The notes below the pieces were generated by a model. That model saw only the letters and a list, made by a program, of their open reading frames with translations, did not search any database and had not been told where the DNA came from. A program made the position numbers and the translations under genes. Of a stretch of DNA of 64,000 nucleotides, positions 16,645 through 22,329 are shown in pieces (within the stretch, counting starts at the first letter, position 1; each line of letters begins with the position of its first letter). Source of the stretch: an uncultured Spirochaetaceae bacterium (GTDB lineage Bacteria > Spirochaetota > Spirochaetia > Sphaerochaetales > Sphaerochaetaceae); NCBI GenBank assembly GCA_944389505.1, contig CALXMP010000001.1, forward strand, positions 62,001 through 126,000, read 5' to 3'.

Positions 16645-18390
16645 TCACTGCTTATAGACAGGCACCTGGACGTACTCTGTATGGAGCAGGTGATGTGCTT
16701 TCTCCGAAAGAGGCTCACCAAGGTAGTCCGCATAGATCTTCTTGATGGAAGGATTCTGATGCGAGCACCTCTTAACAGACTTCTCATCATCTGTATAGAG
16801 TCCCTCGGTTCTCTCCTCACGGACCTTATCATCGGTACCATATGGCTGTCCGCCGCCTGCGATGCATCCGCCACGGCATGCCATGATCTCAATGAAATCA
16901 AGATCGCTCTCGCGTCCTGCTGCCTTATCTTCCTTGATCTTATCAAGAAGAGCCTTAGCAGAGCCCATGCCATGGACTATGGCAACACGGATCTTCTTTC
17001 CGTCAACATCGACCTCACCGCGCTTGACGTTGTCGAGGCCACGGACAAGCTTGATCTCAGGATCGGAAAGCTCCTTGCCTGTAAGACCGAAGTAAGCCGT
17101 TCTTATTGCAGCCTCCATAACACCACCGGTTACACCGAAGATCGTTGCAGCTCCTGTGTATTCTCCGATAGGATCATCTGCCTCTGAATCCGGGAGATTG
17201 GAGAAGTCAAGACCGCGCGAAGCAATAAGCCTTGCAATCTCACGTGTTGTGAGGACAAGATCGACATCACGCTCTCCAGAGGATGATGCATGCTCTCCAT
17301 CACGTGTTATCTCAGCCTTCTTCGCAGTACATGGCATGATAGCAACGGAATAGATATTCTTCTTGTCTATGCCGCTCTTCTCGCTCCAGTATGTCTTTGT
17401 GACAGCTCCCTGCATCATCATCGGGCTCTTTGCCGATGAGAGGTTATCAAGAAGCTCTGGATAGTACTTCTCTGCATAATCCACCCAACCAGGGCAGCAG
17501 GAAGTAATCTGAGGCATTACACCGCCATTCTTAATCCTGTCAAGAAGCTCATAGCCCTCTTCCATGATTGTAAGATCAGCACCGAAGTTCGTATCGAAGA
17601 CGTAGTCGATACCAATGCGGCGGAGTGCTGTATAGAGCTTCTTAGTGGAAATCTCACCTGGCTTAAGGCCGAACTCCTCACCGATTGCGACTCTGACAGC
17701 AGGAGCAATCTGGACAGCAACGACCTTATCAGGATCAGCAATGGCCTTCATGAGATCCCTTGTGTGATCCTGCTCATAGATAGCGCCTACAGGACAATGC
17801 GTGATGCACTGACCGCACTTGATGCATGGGCTGTCATTGAGAGGAAGATGCGCAGCAGGGCTCATCGTTGTCTTATCGCCACGGCCGATGAACTCAAGGG
17901 CATATACACCCTGAAGACCCTGGCATACCTGAACACAGCGTCCGCACTTGATGCACTTCTCAGGATCAAGAACAATGGCTCCGGTAGAGCGGTCCTTCTT
18001 ATCCTCCGCAAGGCGGATCTCGAATGGCTGCTCTCTTACACCATACTCTATAGCAAGCTTCTGGAGCTCACACTTGTTGTTCTTCGTGCAGAGCAGGCAT
18101 GAGGAAGGATGGGTGCTCATCGTGAGCTCAAGGATAGTCCTTCTGACCTCATAGAGATCATGATCATGGGTAATGATCTTCATACCCTCTGCAGCTGGCG
18201 TTGAGCATGCGCGGAGGATTTTCTTGGAGCCCTCCTGCTTGCATACGCACAGTCCGCACGAACCGAACGGCTTAAGATCCGGATGATAGCAGAGCGTCGG
18301 GATCTTTATGCCGGCTTTTCTGGCAGCCTCAAGGACGGTTGTTCCCTCTGCTACCTCTACATCTATTCCCTGTACAGTAAGATGAATCAT
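16645..18390 (-). CDS. hydA: [FeFe]-hydrogenase catalytic subunit (NAD-linked, HydA)
   Basis: The 581-residue protein reads in order: a [2Fe-2S] domain (CGLCVC), the His-Cys segment (HPSSCLLC), two [4Fe-4S] clusters (CIKCGRCVQVC, CIKCGQCITHC), then the H-cluster motifs TSCCPGW, MPCTAKKAE and MACRGGCIAGGGQP, and a small-subunit tail. It interconverts protons and H2, taking electrons through HydB. The start at 18390 is fixed by GGAGGA just upstream; a TTG at 18414 lies inside hydB. It is the last gene of the five-gene operon. Confidence 0.95.
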   Translation of the reverse strand: MIHLTVQGIDVEVAEGTTVLEAARKAGIKIPTLCYHPDLKPFGSCGLCVCKQEGSKKILRACSTPAAEGMKIITHDHDLYEVRRTILELTMSTHPSSCLLCTKNNKCELQKLAIEYGVREQPFEIRLAEDKKDRSTGAIVLDPEKCIKCGRCVQVCQGLQGVYALEFIGRGDKTTMSPAAHLPLNDSPCIKCGQCITHCPVGAIYEQDHTRDLMKAIADPDKVVAVQIAPAVRVAIGEEFGLKPGEISTKKLYTALRRIGIDYVFDTNFGADLTIMEEGYELLDRIKNGGVMPQITSCCPGWVDYAEKYYPELLDNLSSAKSPMMMQGAVTKTYWSEKSGIDKKNIYSVAIMPCTAKKAEITRDGEHASSSGERDVDLVLTTREIARLIASRGLDFSNLPDSEADDPIGEYTGAATIFGVTGGVMEAAIRTAYFGLTGKELSDPEIKLVRGLDNVKRGEVDVDGKKIRVAIVHGMGSAKALLDKIKEDKAAGRESDLDFIEIMACRGGCIAGGGQPYGTDDKVREERTEGLYTDDEKSVKRCSHQNPSIKKIYADYLGEPLSEKAHHLLHTEYVQVPVYKQ

Positions 18391-18400
18391 CGCTCTCCTC

Positions 18401-20188
18401 CTAGTGAATCTCAATTGCGCCGAACTTACATGTTTCTTTGCAGACGCCGCACTTTATACAGACATTGCCATTGATCTTATGAGGCTTCTTGACCTCTCCG
18501 GAAATAGCACCTACAGGGCACTTCCTTGCACAAGCCGTACATCCGATGCACTTTGAGGTATTGATCTCATAGCTGATCAGCTTCTTGCACTTTCCAGACG
18601 GGCACTTCTTGTCCTGGATATGGGCCTCATACTCATGCGGGAAATACCTGAGCGATGAAAGGACAGGATTAGGAGCTGTCTGGCCAAGGGCACAGAGAGA
18701 ACCGATCTGCATAGCCTTTGCAATCTGATGGATCTGCTCGATATCCTTCTCCTCGCCCTTGCCCTGGGTGATCTTCTCAAGGATGTTGCAGAGACTCTTT
18801 CCGCCGATACGGCATGGAGCACACTTTCCGCAGGACTCATCAACTGTGAAGTTGAGGTAGAACTTAGCTACGTCGACGATACAGTCATCCTCGTCCATTA
18901 CAATCATTCCACCGGAACCCATCATGGAACCGATTCTCTGGAGTCCGCCGAAATCGATAGGCGTATCGAGGTTCTCCTCTGTGATAACACCGCCGGAAGG
19001 ACCGCCGGTCTGCACAGCCTTGAACTTCTTGCCATGGGCGATTCCGCCGCCGATATCATATACGATCTCGCGGAGCGTTGTTCCCATAGGAACCTCTACA
19101 AGACCAGAGTTGCAGATCTTGCCTGTGAGGGCGAATACCTTTGTTCCATGGCTATCCTCGGTACCGATGGATGCGAACCACTCGCCGCCGTTATCGATGA
19201 TCTGAGGGATATTTGCCCATGTCTCAACATTGTTGATGACAGTCGGCTTGCCCCAGAGACCCTTGTTAGCCGGGAATGGCGGACGTGGCTGAGGCATACC
19301 CCTGTGTCCTTCGATGGACTGGAGAAGAGCAGTTTCCTCTCCGCAGACGAATGCGCCAGCGCCGAGTCTGATCTCGATATCATAATCAAAGCCTGAGCCA
19401 AGGATATCCTTGCCAAGAAGGCCATACTCCCTAGCCTGCTTCATAGCGACTTCAAGGCGGTGGATTGCGAGAGGATACTCCGCACGGATGTAGATATAGC
19501 CATGCTGGGCACCGATAGTGCGTCCACAGATCGTCATTGCCTCAAGGACGGAATGCGGATCGCCTTCGAGCGTTGAACGATCCATGTAAGCACCCGGATC
19601 GCCTTCATCAGCATTGCAGACAACGAACTTCTCGTCGCCCTCGGCAACCTTTGTGAAGTTCCACTTCATCCATGTCGGGAAACCTGCACCGCCGCGGCCT
19701 CTGAGACCTGCGACCTTGAGCTCATTGATGACATCATCCGGAGTCATCTCAAAGAGAACCTTCTCAAGAGCCTTGTATCCGCCAGCTGCGATATATTCAT
19801 CGATATTCTCAGGATCGATCGATCCGCAGTTGCGGAGTACGATTCTCTTCTGCTTCTGATAGAACTTGATGTCCTCGACTTCCTCGTAAGCCTTTCTTGG
19901 AGCCTTGTTGTAAAGAAGCCTTGTCACTTCGCGGCCCTTGACCACATGCTCGGCAATAAGCTCCTTGGCATCCTCAGGCTTGACCTGGACATAGAATGAA
20001 TCCTCAGGAAGGATCTTGACAATCGGGCCCTGCTCGCAGAATCCGAAGCATCCTGTCTTGATTACCTGGACCTGATCTGCGACGCCCTGATTCTGGGCCT
20101 CATCGATAAGAGCATGATAGATCTGATCGGAGCGTGAGGATTCGCATCCCGTGCCTCCGCAGACAAGAATATAGTTCTTGAATCCCAT
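18401..20188 (-). CDS. hydB: NADH-binding hydrogenase subunit (NuoF-like, HydB)
   Basis: The 595-residue protein has an N-terminal thioredoxin-like [2Fe-2S] domain (GGTGC, TGCFGFC), a NuoF core with the NAD/FMN loops GLRGRGGAGFPT and ADEGDPGAYMDR, the [4Fe-4S] site ESCGKCAPCR, and a C-terminal two-cluster ferredoxin (CIGCTACARKC, CIKCGVCKETC). This is the standard electron-input subunit of NAD-dependent, possibly bifurcating, [FeFe]-hydrogenases. The start at 20188 follows GAGGAG; it lies 4 nt after the ferredoxin-like gene and 10 nt before hydA. Confidence 0.95.
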   Translation of the reverse strand: MGFKNYILVCGGTGCESSRSDQIYHALIDEAQNQGVADQVQVIKTGCFGFCEQGPIVKILPEDSFYVQVKPEDAKELIAEHVVKGREVTRLLYNKAPRKAYEEVEDIKFYQKQKRIVLRNCGSIDPENIDEYIAAGGYKALEKVLFEMTPDDVINELKVAGLRGRGGAGFPTWMKWNFTKVAEGDEKFVVCNADEGDPGAYMDRSTLEGDPHSVLEAMTICGRTIGAQHGYIYIRAEYPLAIHRLEVAMKQAREYGLLGKDILGSGFDYDIEIRLGAGAFVCGEETALLQSIEGHRGMPQPRPPFPANKGLWGKPTVINNVETWANIPQIIDNGGEWFASIGTEDSHGTKVFALTGKICNSGLVEVPMGTTLREIVYDIGGGIAHGKKFKAVQTGGPSGGVITEENLDTPIDFGGLQRIGSMMGSGGMIVMDEDDCIVDVAKFYLNFTVDESCGKCAPCRIGGKSLCNILEKITQGKGEEKDIEQIHQIAKAMQIGSLCALGQTAPNPVLSSLRYFPHEYEAHIQDKKCPSGKCKKLISYEINTSKCIGCTACARKCPVGAISGEVKKPHKINGNVCIKCGVCKETCKFGAIEIH

Positions 20189-20192
20189 AGCA

Positions 20193-20564
20193 CTACTCCT
20201 CATGACCGATGACAAGATCGTCAACGGCTTTTCCACCTTCGAGATGCTCCGCTACGATGCGGACAGCATCATCCTTGCCGACATTGCCGTATACAGTCAG
20301 ACCCTCACCTGGCTTGAAAACCTCAACAACAGGCTCAGGACGGCCTTCTACAGCGCCAGTCTGTGTAATAATCACATTATCGAGTCCTCTCTTCTCGACT
20401 TCATCTGCGATAGTGTTGAGGACAAGCTTGGCACCCTTCTCGATTCCGGATGTGCCCATCGCGACAACTACATGGACAGTGCGTCCGTGGATATCGCGCT
20501 TCTTCAGATTCTTTTCCTCGCGCTCCCTTATAGCGTGAAGATCGGAAAGCGAAAGCTTAGCCAT
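20193..20564 (-). CDS. Ferredoxin-like hydrogenase operon protein lacking all cysteines
   Basis: The 123-residue protein aligns by eye with the thioredoxin-fold [2Fe-2S] proteins that occupy this position in hydrogenase operons: VVVAMGTSGIEKGAK corresponds to the usual GMGTCGIAAGA, and TQTGAVEGRPEP to TGCxGxC..EP. Every cluster ligand is replaced and the protein contains no cysteine, so it cannot bind a [2Fe-2S] cluster in the usual way. The frame is intact and well translated (AAGGAGAG upstream). It probably remains as a structural or docking subunit while HydB's own N-terminal domain carries the cluster. Confidence 0.85.
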   Translation of the reverse strand: MAKLSLSDLHAIREREEKNLKKRDIHGRTVHVVVAMGTSGIEKGAKLVLNTIADEVEKRGLDNVIITQTGAVEGRPEPVVEVFKPGEGLTVYGNVGKDDAVRIVAEHLEGGKAVDDLVIGHEE

Positions 20565-20582: not shown

Positions 20583-21056
20583 TTACCCTTGCCTCTCGAT
20601 ATAAGCCCTGAAGGCCCTTATCCCTGAAGCATCGGAGGGAAATGCATCTTCCCTTCTAAGATCATCCGTCGAGAATCTCTTTTCCACTCCGGATGACCGT
20701 ATGCTGACCCATACATCAGGATTTCTCAGGAAGACCGGAAGCAATGCATGGAACAGATCTCCGAAGCTTCCATCATCTTCAACTCTGAATCTGAGCTGGG
20801 TATATCCTTCTCCTCGTGTTAAGCTGCAGCGTCCGCGCGATGCCTCCCATATGATTGACAGACCGCGTCCGCGCCCTTTGCCCTTGGTTGTTGCTCCCTC
20901 AGGAAATGGATCACCTTCGATCACCCACTCCCCGTCATCAAGGATCTCTATCATCCAGATCCCTCCCTCATCTTCAGCCAAGGCCTTTATTATTCCGGCC
21001 CCTGCCTCAGTGCTGTTCTCTACAGCTTCCAGGACAAGATCTGCCACACTGTGCAT
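20583..21056 (-). CDS. Histidine-kinase-like ATPase domain protein of the hydrogenase operon
   Basis: The 157-residue protein has a GHKL ATP-binding fold: N-box VLEAVENSTEAG (about residues 8-19), G1 box LDDGEW and G2 glycine-rich GKGRGRGLSII. About residues 100-157 lie outside this core and were not recognised. No kinase dimerisation domain is present, so it resembles anti-sigma-type ATPases. Such a gene is common between nuoE and hydB in hydrogenase operons, where its role is not settled. Its ATG shares a base with the nuoE-like stop (TGATG), showing translational coupling. Confidence 0.8.
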   Translation of the reverse strand: MHSVADLVLEAVENSTEAGAGIIKALAEDEGGIWMIEILDDGEWVIEGDPFPEGATTKGKGRGRGLSIIWEASRGRCSLTRGEGYTQLRFRVEDDGSFGDLFHALLPVFLRNPDVWVSIRSSGVEKRFSTDDLRREDAFPSDASGIRAFRAYIERQG

Positions 21057-21520
21057 CAGGCGAATTTATCGAGTATGCCTGATATCTGGTTCTTGGCAAC
21101 CTTTCCGAAGACCTCTCCTGAGATTGTCATAACAGGAGCAAGACCGCAGCATCCGACGCAGCGTACTGCTTCAAGTGAGAACTTGCCGTCCTCGGTCAGT
21201 CCGCCAACACCGAGCCCGAGCTCTTTGCCAAGCTCTTCGATGATGATATCCCCGCCCTTGAGATAGCAGGCGGTGCCCAGGCATACCTGGATGTTGTACT
21301 TACCCGGTTTGTTGAGCTTGAAGAAGTGGTAGAAAGTAAGAACTCCCCAGATTGTAGCAAGGGGAATTCCGAGCTGTCTGGATACCTCATCAGCAGCTTC
21401 CCTCGACACATATCCGAACTCTTCCTGGACACGGTGAAGGATCATGATGAGATTGCCTGGCTTGTCTTTCCATTCTGCCAGATACGCATTCAGCTCATCC
21501 GAGAATATGTTCTGAGCCAT
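21056..21520 (-). CDS. NuoE-like [2Fe-2S] hydrogenase subunit (HydC)
   Basis: The 154-residue protein matches the NuoE/HydC family: helical N-terminus with GYVSREAADEVSRQLGIPL, then the ligands CLGTAC and CVGCCG of a thioredoxin-fold [2Fe-2S] cluster. It passes electrons between HydB and the rest of the complex. The start at 21520 is set by AGGAGGG 6 nt upstream; an upstream in-frame start at 21607 gives an AT-rich non-homologous tail. It is the first gene of the hydrogenase operon, facing rex. Confidence 0.93.
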   Translation of the reverse strand: MAQNIFSDELNAYLAEWKDKPGNLIMILHRVQEEFGYVSREAADEVSRQLGIPLATIWGVLTFYHFFKLNKPGKYNIQVCLGTACYLKGGDIIIEELGKELGLGVGGLTEDGKFSLEAVRCVGCCGLAPVMTISGEVFGKVAKNQISGILDKFA

Positions 21521-21687
21521 AAGCCCTCCTTTGTCATTCGCTAAGATTTTACTGAATTGGTTTATAGTTTGCAATAAAACAACGTATTTTTTCATAAAAG
21601 AACGCATAAAGCATTGAAGGCTTTCATATTTATAGCTACACTCTCTTAAATAATATTACTATAATCACATTTATTTGGAGATTAAAC

Positions 21688-22329
21688 ATGAACAGCGATA
21701 TGCTTATCAGGATAACAAGGTATTACAGGGCTCTTAATCGTCTTAGAGCCATTGGATTAGAGAAAGTATTCGCACACAACCTTTCCGATGCGGCAGGGGT
21801 ATCCGCAGCTGTTGTCAGGAAGGACTTCTCGATTCTCTCCATCCATGGCCAGAAAAGGGGCGGATATGAGATAACAGACCTCATAGAGAAGCTCAGCGCC
21901 ATACTCGGCAAAGGCGATCCGCAGAATGTAATAGTCGTCGGCTGCGGAAGGATAGGAAAAGCACTTATGCACTATTCAGGGTTCGAACCGGATGGCATCC
22001 GCGTTGTGGCGGGTTTCGATACAGATCCTGTCGTTTATTCCGATGTCTCCCATCCCGTCCCTGTCTATCCTCTGTCAAGGCTTGAGGAGGTAATCGAAGC
22101 ACTTGAGGTCAAAGTTGCCATAATAACGGTTCCTGAAGCATCTGCTGCGGACACCGCAGAAAAGCTCATCGATGCAGGAATAAAGGGGATACTCAATTTC
22201 TCACCAATAACGCTGAGGGCAAAACCCGCATCAGACGGAGAGACGCCTTGCGTTATACACAACATAAACATAGCGCTTGAGCTGGAGCAGATCTTCTATC
22301 AGCTGCAGTTCCCTGATGCAATCAGATAA
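21688..22329 (+). CDS. rex: Redox-sensing transcriptional repressor Rex
   Basis: The 213-residue protein has an N-terminal winged helix (YYRALNRLRA, SDAAGVSAAVVRKDFS) and a Rossmann domain with VVGCGRIGKAL, then AGFDTDP. Rex releases DNA when the NADH/NAD ratio rises and typically controls fermentation and hydrogenase genes, which fits the divergent hydrogenase operon. GGAG lies 8 nt before the ATG and TATAAT at 21660-21665 is a likely -10. A clear Rex operator was not found by eye in the 167-bp gap. It ends exactly where the converging ogg gene ends. Confidence 0.93.
   Translation: MNSDMLIRITRYYRALNRLRAIGLEKVFAHNLSDAAGVSAAVVRKDFSILSIHGQKRGGYEITDLIEKLSAILGKGDPQNVIVVGCGRIGKALMHYSGFEPDGIRVVAGFDTDPVVYSDVSHPVPVYPLSRLEEVIEALEVKVAIITVPEASAADTAEKLIDAGIKGILNFSPITLRAKPASDGETPCVIHNINIALELEQIFYQLQFPDAIR

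Follow-up and report, generated by a model that had tools for sequence, protein, structure and literature searches.

The small fourth subunit of bifurcating [FeFe]-hydrogenases has been described from several organisms. In Solidesulfovibrio fructosivorans, where the Hnd hydrogenase is described as tetrameric, the subunit HndB is probably without a redox centre (PMC10084766), and for the HydD subunit of Acetobacterium woodii, an extra subunit of about 15 kDa, no cofactor is predicted (PMC6288185). By contrast, HydD of Caldanaerobacter subterraneus, which is present in the purified 325 kDa complex, is predicted to carry one Fe-S cluster (PMC4694547). In all three reports, presence or absence of the cluster was predicted rather than measured (PMC4694547, PMC6288185, PMC10084766). 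In Acetomicrobium mobile, hydD and hisK belong to the operon of a [NiFe] enzyme, yet neither product is found in the purified holoenzyme, and both are taken to serve maturation or regulation (PMC8880783, PMC9304861); a role as a stable subunit is thus not general. A further point of reference is StnB of the Sporomusa Stn transhydrogenase. Two of its ligands were judged from the sequence to be lost (PMC7483475), but a [2Fe-2S] cluster was later modelled by cryo-EM (PMC10482914) and, by elimination of the other sites, should lie in the three-cysteine N-terminal domain. StnB and NfnB carry a three-cysteine motif identical to that of the common form of HydD.

We analysed a 64,000-nucleotide stretch of DNA from an uncultured Spirochaetaceae bacterium, here called the window, which contains a hydrogenase locus with the following features:

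16645..18414, minus strand: HydA, [FeFe]-hydrogenase catalytic subunit, with the H-cluster motifs TSCCP, MPCTAK and EIMACRGGC intact
18401..20188, minus strand: HydB, NuoF-like subunit with FMN/NAD and Fe-S sites (start codon chosen)
20193..20564, minus strand: HydD/HndB homologue, 123 residues, no cysteine (open reading frame, translation, predicted fold)
20340..20357, minus strand: ligand-loop remnant GAVEGR, residues 70-75 of HydD, aligned with the family motif GCxGxC
20439..20459, minus strand: MGTSGIE, residues 36-42 of HydD, aligned with the family motif MGTCGIA, with Ser39 in place of a ligand cysteine
20583..21056, minus strand: GHKL/histidine-kinase-like (HisK-like) ATPase domain protein, 157 residues, matching Pfam HATPase_c below the curated cut-off
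21056..21520, minus strand: HydC, NuoE-like subunit with a thioredoxin-like [2Fe-2S] domain, four ligand cysteines intact
21688..22329, plus strand: gene for the Rex redox-sensing repressor, divergent, upstream of the operon

The minus-strand operon thus runs HydC, ATPase, HydD, HydB, HydA, the same order as hydC-tte0891-hydD-hydB-hydA in C. subterraneus (PMC4694547), with hydD as third gene and rex divergently upstream. No Rex-type palindrome resembling TTGTGA-N6-TCACAA with three or fewer mismatches was found in the divergent hydC/rex promoter region (21500-21740). The hydD frame is uninterrupted and begins with an ATG that has a GGAG ribosome-binding site just 5' of it, and the HydB start codon follows 4 bases past its stop. 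These observations confirm the first-pass annotation in its description of an intact, cysteine-free frame at this operon position. It had further assigned electron transfer to a cluster in the N-terminal domain of HydB, and this site is indeed present, all four ligand cysteines being kept (VCGGTGC, TGCFGFC). HydB also carries HEYEAHIQDKKCPSGKC, two C-terminal 4Fe-4S motifs, the NuoF 4Fe-4S site and the His/Cys hinge, and its best PDB match is HydB of A. woodii (7q4v). The C-terminal ferredoxin domain together with the hinge site points to an enzyme of the electron-bifurcating type. HydA scores above the cut-off of the NCBIfam model for group A6 NADH-dependent hydrogenases; its true start may be internal, near 18390.

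Judged from its sequence, the window protein is a member of HydD/HndB, the small fourth gene product of bifurcating [FeFe]-hydrogenase operons, and not an ordinary ferredoxin. Residues 6-25 are predicted to form an N-terminal helix, followed by a thioredoxin-like domain from about residue 28 to 123, and the relationship to HydD/HndB extends over the full length, helix included. The gene is preceded by nuoE/hydC and the ATPase gene and followed directly by hydB, and the protein falls inside the family in the tree. Helix-bearing homologues in the same operon position occur in spirochaetes, Bacillota, deltaproteobacterial lineages, Synergistetes, Cloacimonadota, Verrucomicrobia and other bacteria; relatives are found in most genomes of the genus and in many families, with E values down to 1e-26 beyond the genus. 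The residues L9, M36-T38, G40, G44-A45, G70, P78 and Y92 are invariant. The protein would correspond to HndB as the small fourth subunit of such a hydrogenase (PMC10084766) and to A. woodii HydD as an extra subunit (PMC6288185), both being compared here by description only. Pfam returned no credible match, PF01257 being unreported at E values up to 1, and the protein, with no cysteine, lacks the four cysteine ligands of PF01257 ferredoxins. The NCBIfam 2Fe-2S ferredoxin model NF041612 matched at 1.8e-7, far under its cut-off. Profile and sequence comparisons relate the protein to the N-terminal domains of NfnB, StnB and HydB and to the Aquifex [2Fe-2S] ferredoxin. An AlphaFold2 model built from a 16-row alignment with relatives (mean pLDDT 81) matched the structures of these four with Z scores of 13-17; for the NfnB domain and the Aquifex ferredoxin, Z was 16-17 at 1.2-1.6 A over 90-92 residues. 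The predicted fold is that of thioredoxin-like [2Fe-2S] ferredoxins, as seen in the match to 1m2a (Z 16, 30% identity). The Aquifex protein binds its cluster via cysteines, whereas the window protein has none. The N-terminal domains of StnB, NfnB and HydB (8oh5, 9bp5, 9n5u, 7q4v; 25-30% identity) share the fold as well but are domains of a flavin subunit with ligand cysteines, unlike the free-standing HydD with its extra N-terminal helix. The original label of a [2Fe-2S] ferredoxin homologue therefore holds for sequence and predicted fold, although the protein belongs to a separate family, HydD/HndB, that usually has three cysteines.

The bare lack of cysteine proves nothing by composition. 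At the cysteine frequency of the ten neighbouring genes (0.63%), the chance of finding none in 123 residues is about 0.46. A chance lack is excluded by the family comparison: at three columns that hold cysteine in 222 of 303 distinct family members, the window HydD has other residues throughout, and one loop residue is deleted. Relative to the HydB ligand pattern, C-x4-C and C-x3-C, the usual HydD lacks the first ligand and has its three cysteines in MGTCGIAAGA and TGCxGxC. The earlier claim that all ligand cysteines had been replaced is thus borne out as a loss, but measured against a family norm of three ligands, not four. In the window protein all three are missing, the GAVEGR loop alone having lost two cysteines and one residue relative to GCxGxC; the three cysteines are a trait of the common form and not family-defining.

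Across the family, cysteines are either all present or all absent. The 303 distinct sequences comprised 222 with three cysteines, 81 with none and no partial form with one or two, and a smaller set of 244 gave the same all-or-none result. Sampling was biased to good matches; the genome-contig scan, of which the best 80 matches were taken, required C or S at the first position of its search pattern. Against this bias we added 59 mostly lower-scoring sequences, 58 of them with three cysteines and one with none. Nearly all HydD sequences from Bacillota samples have three, and a plasmid search yielded four records, with one named three-cysteine member, Parabacteroides distasonis. Such a distribution is in keeping with three residues that function only as a set, most simply as the ligands of one cluster. 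Two side observations concern the cysteine state. At L140, L141, L142 and L143, all from the sister genus, HydD has an additional, fourth cysteine (VVCMGTC), which occupies the first ligand position. L269 has two hydD copies (1501-1860 and 2429-2806), separated by about 570 bases, one with three cysteines and one with none.

We next consider when the cysteines were lost. In a 90-row tree, the window genus, whose named relatives include Candidatus Ornithospirochaeta (L053, L060), formed a single cysteine-free clade (99/99) nested among three-cysteine relatives and joined at 100/98 to its sister genus; every sequence read from the latter carries three or four cysteines. Accordingly, the cysteines were lost once, on the genus stem. 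This agrees with the first-pass view of a loss of ancestral cysteines, and the alignment with relatives that it had proposed for dating the event places it on that stem. It had named membership of a naturally cluster-free family as grounds for refutation; cysteine-free members do exist, but those of the window genus, at least, are derived. The cysteine-free state is common to 38 distinct sequences of the genus and also occurs elsewhere, so that it is not peculiar to the window genome. In a tree of the 244 sequences, with ligand columns excluded, seven state changes were needed, one of them due to the very long branch of L051, and the starred branches alone force three. A loss shared between the window genus and either of two other cysteine-free lineages was rejected (p 0.025 and 0.0015). 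Single common losses for the SAx forms (L162/L163) with L036/L202 (p 0.059) and for all S-x-D forms (p 0.415) were not rejected. Taken together, the phylogeny supports at least two independent losses and suggests about six, the exact count being uncertain.

Apart from the ligand site, the protein was largely preserved. Among conserved columns, taken as those with the same residue in at least 85% of three-cysteine members, most are kept at 92-100% in the genus. The losses are the three cysteines (0%), the glycine between the last two of them (8%) and Ala42 after GI (0%); residues 43, 82 and 107 are partly changed. The first cysteine is replaced by Ser, Ala or Gln, with Ser39 in most members, and the second by residues such as Ser, Ala and Leu; a deletion removes the last ligand column from all 37 aligned sequences. 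Erosion in the genus thus appears largely limited to the ligand site. Median dN/dS was 0.133 in the window genus vs 0.114 in the three-cysteine sister genus, values that are indicative only, as many pairs are near saturation in the NG86 method. Gene neighbourhood is likewise similar in the two states: HydB follows hydD in 66 of 78 cysteine-free (85%) and 132 of 158 three-cysteine cases (84%), and the ATPase gene precedes it in 67 of 79 (85%) vs 115 of 160 (72%). Selection for a structural role had been proposed at the outset. Loss of the ligands with retention of the rest is largely supported and purifying selection is evident (dN/dS about 0.13), while the structural role itself is an interpretation.

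Contacts of HydD are suggested by gene fusions. Two members of the genus carry hydD as an in-frame fusion with the ATPase gene; they represent two lineages, each seen twice in apparently one genome. In another spirochaete, hydD is fused to nuoE. Both kinds of fusion come from metagenome assemblies:

L058, 5518-6378: in-frame ATPase-HydD fusion
L152, 1486-2346: in-frame ATPase-HydD fusion
L021, 1027-1875: in-frame ATPase-HydD fusion
L061, 3222-4070: in-frame ATPase-HydD fusion
L051, 1582-2511: NuoE-HydD fusion, 309 residues, HydD part with three cysteines

These fusions point to contact of HydD with both partners. N-terminal extensions at L036, L093 and L251 were discarded as false fusions that arise from mechanical ORF starts.

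We consider it probable that HydD of the window genus, having lost its cysteines on the genus stem and kept the rest, binds no cluster and retains a role in docking, stability or assembly. The sequences show descent from a three-cysteine protein, with the cysteines and a loop residue lost on that stem while nearly all other conserved residues stayed. The cysteines of the usual form would bind an Fe-S cluster, and the cysteine-free form would bind none and carry no electrons, which would pass through HydC, HydB and HydA, the ligand motifs of all three being intact. If three-cysteine HydD holds a cluster and the window protein cannot, its function must then rest on contacts: as a subunit, it would dock to, stabilise or help to assemble the hydrogenase by binding HydB/HydC and probably also the adjacent ATPase. 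The main rival to this subunit reading, which we favour, is that HydD is a maturation or regulatory factor that acts with the ATPase, its cysteines having been a redox sensor or cluster-delivery site that is now dispensable. The position of A. mobile HydD and HisK outside the holoenzyme, the preceding ATPase gene in most cysteine-free cases and the in-frame fusions in two lineages all speak for such a factor. However, HydD co-purifies with the C. subterraneus complex, Hnd is described as tetrameric and A. woodii HydD as a subunit, and we regard the maturation or regulatory role as rather unlikely.

A second rival, that the family never bound a cluster and the three cysteines serve another purpose, so that no cofactor was lost, draws on the absence of a predicted cofactor in A. 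woodii HydD and HndB (PMC6288185, PMC10084766) and of one of the four classic ligands in nearly all members. It is hard to reconcile with the joint presence or absence of the cysteines over 303 sequences, with the cluster modelled in StnB, located by elimination in a domain with the same motif (PMC10482914), or with the fourth cysteine of the four sister-genus sequences, and is distinctly improbable. Retention of a cluster through serine, aspartate or other ligands might be read from Ser39 in most of the genus and from an aspartate at the last ligand position in some other cysteine-free lineages, but the replacing residues vary and the last ligand column is gone from every aligned genus sequence, leaving very little room for it. 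Least credible of all, to the point of being negligible, is a decaying remnant or assembly artefact: the loss of ligand residues is all that speaks for it, and a pseudogene is rejected by intact frames in every matched genus member, by the cysteine-free state common to 38 distinct sequences, by the low dN/dS and by the conserved residues kept. A cysteine-bearing paralogue that could substitute was not found in the same assembly, the sole other match being the domain of HydB itself.

Extending the subunit reading to the whole family, we propose, tentatively, that HydD could be a two-state subunit that exists either with an unusual three-cysteine [2Fe-2S] site or without a cluster, lineages having passed repeatedly, in all-or-none fashion, from the former state to the latter; the cluster would be optional and the essential work contact with the bifurcating hydrogenase and its ATPase. 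A fourth subunit probably without a redox centre has already been described in HndB and A. woodii HydD; what is new is the repeated all-or-none loss of cysteine in HydD. We found no description of the discrete two-state distribution and repeated selective loss in the limited open-access literature. Published statements on the HydD cofactor conflict, and the existence of both forms suggests why. As all three cysteines were lost throughout the genus while the protein stayed under selection, HydD must have work beyond electron transfer. Cysteine-free lineages with the rest of the protein intact are a natural experiment that separates electron transfer from any other work of HydD, and paired three-cysteine and cysteine-free proteins make the role of the fourth subunit directly testable.

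In the cysteine-free SE-type clade of HydD, the lack of cysteine extends at ten loci to the NuoF-like subunit encoded next, whose thioredoxin-like N-terminal domain (LISIDAGTI...ETGSIG) has none either:

L075, 6836-8428
L087, 6837-7541
L101, 6834-8417
L104, 6825-8402
L105, 6830-8419
L116, 6832-8412
L125, 6827-8416
L213, 2330-3358
L250, 2338-3366
L252, 2330-3364

Several of these ten also have, about 4 kb downstream, another NuoF-like gene that does encode ligand cysteines.
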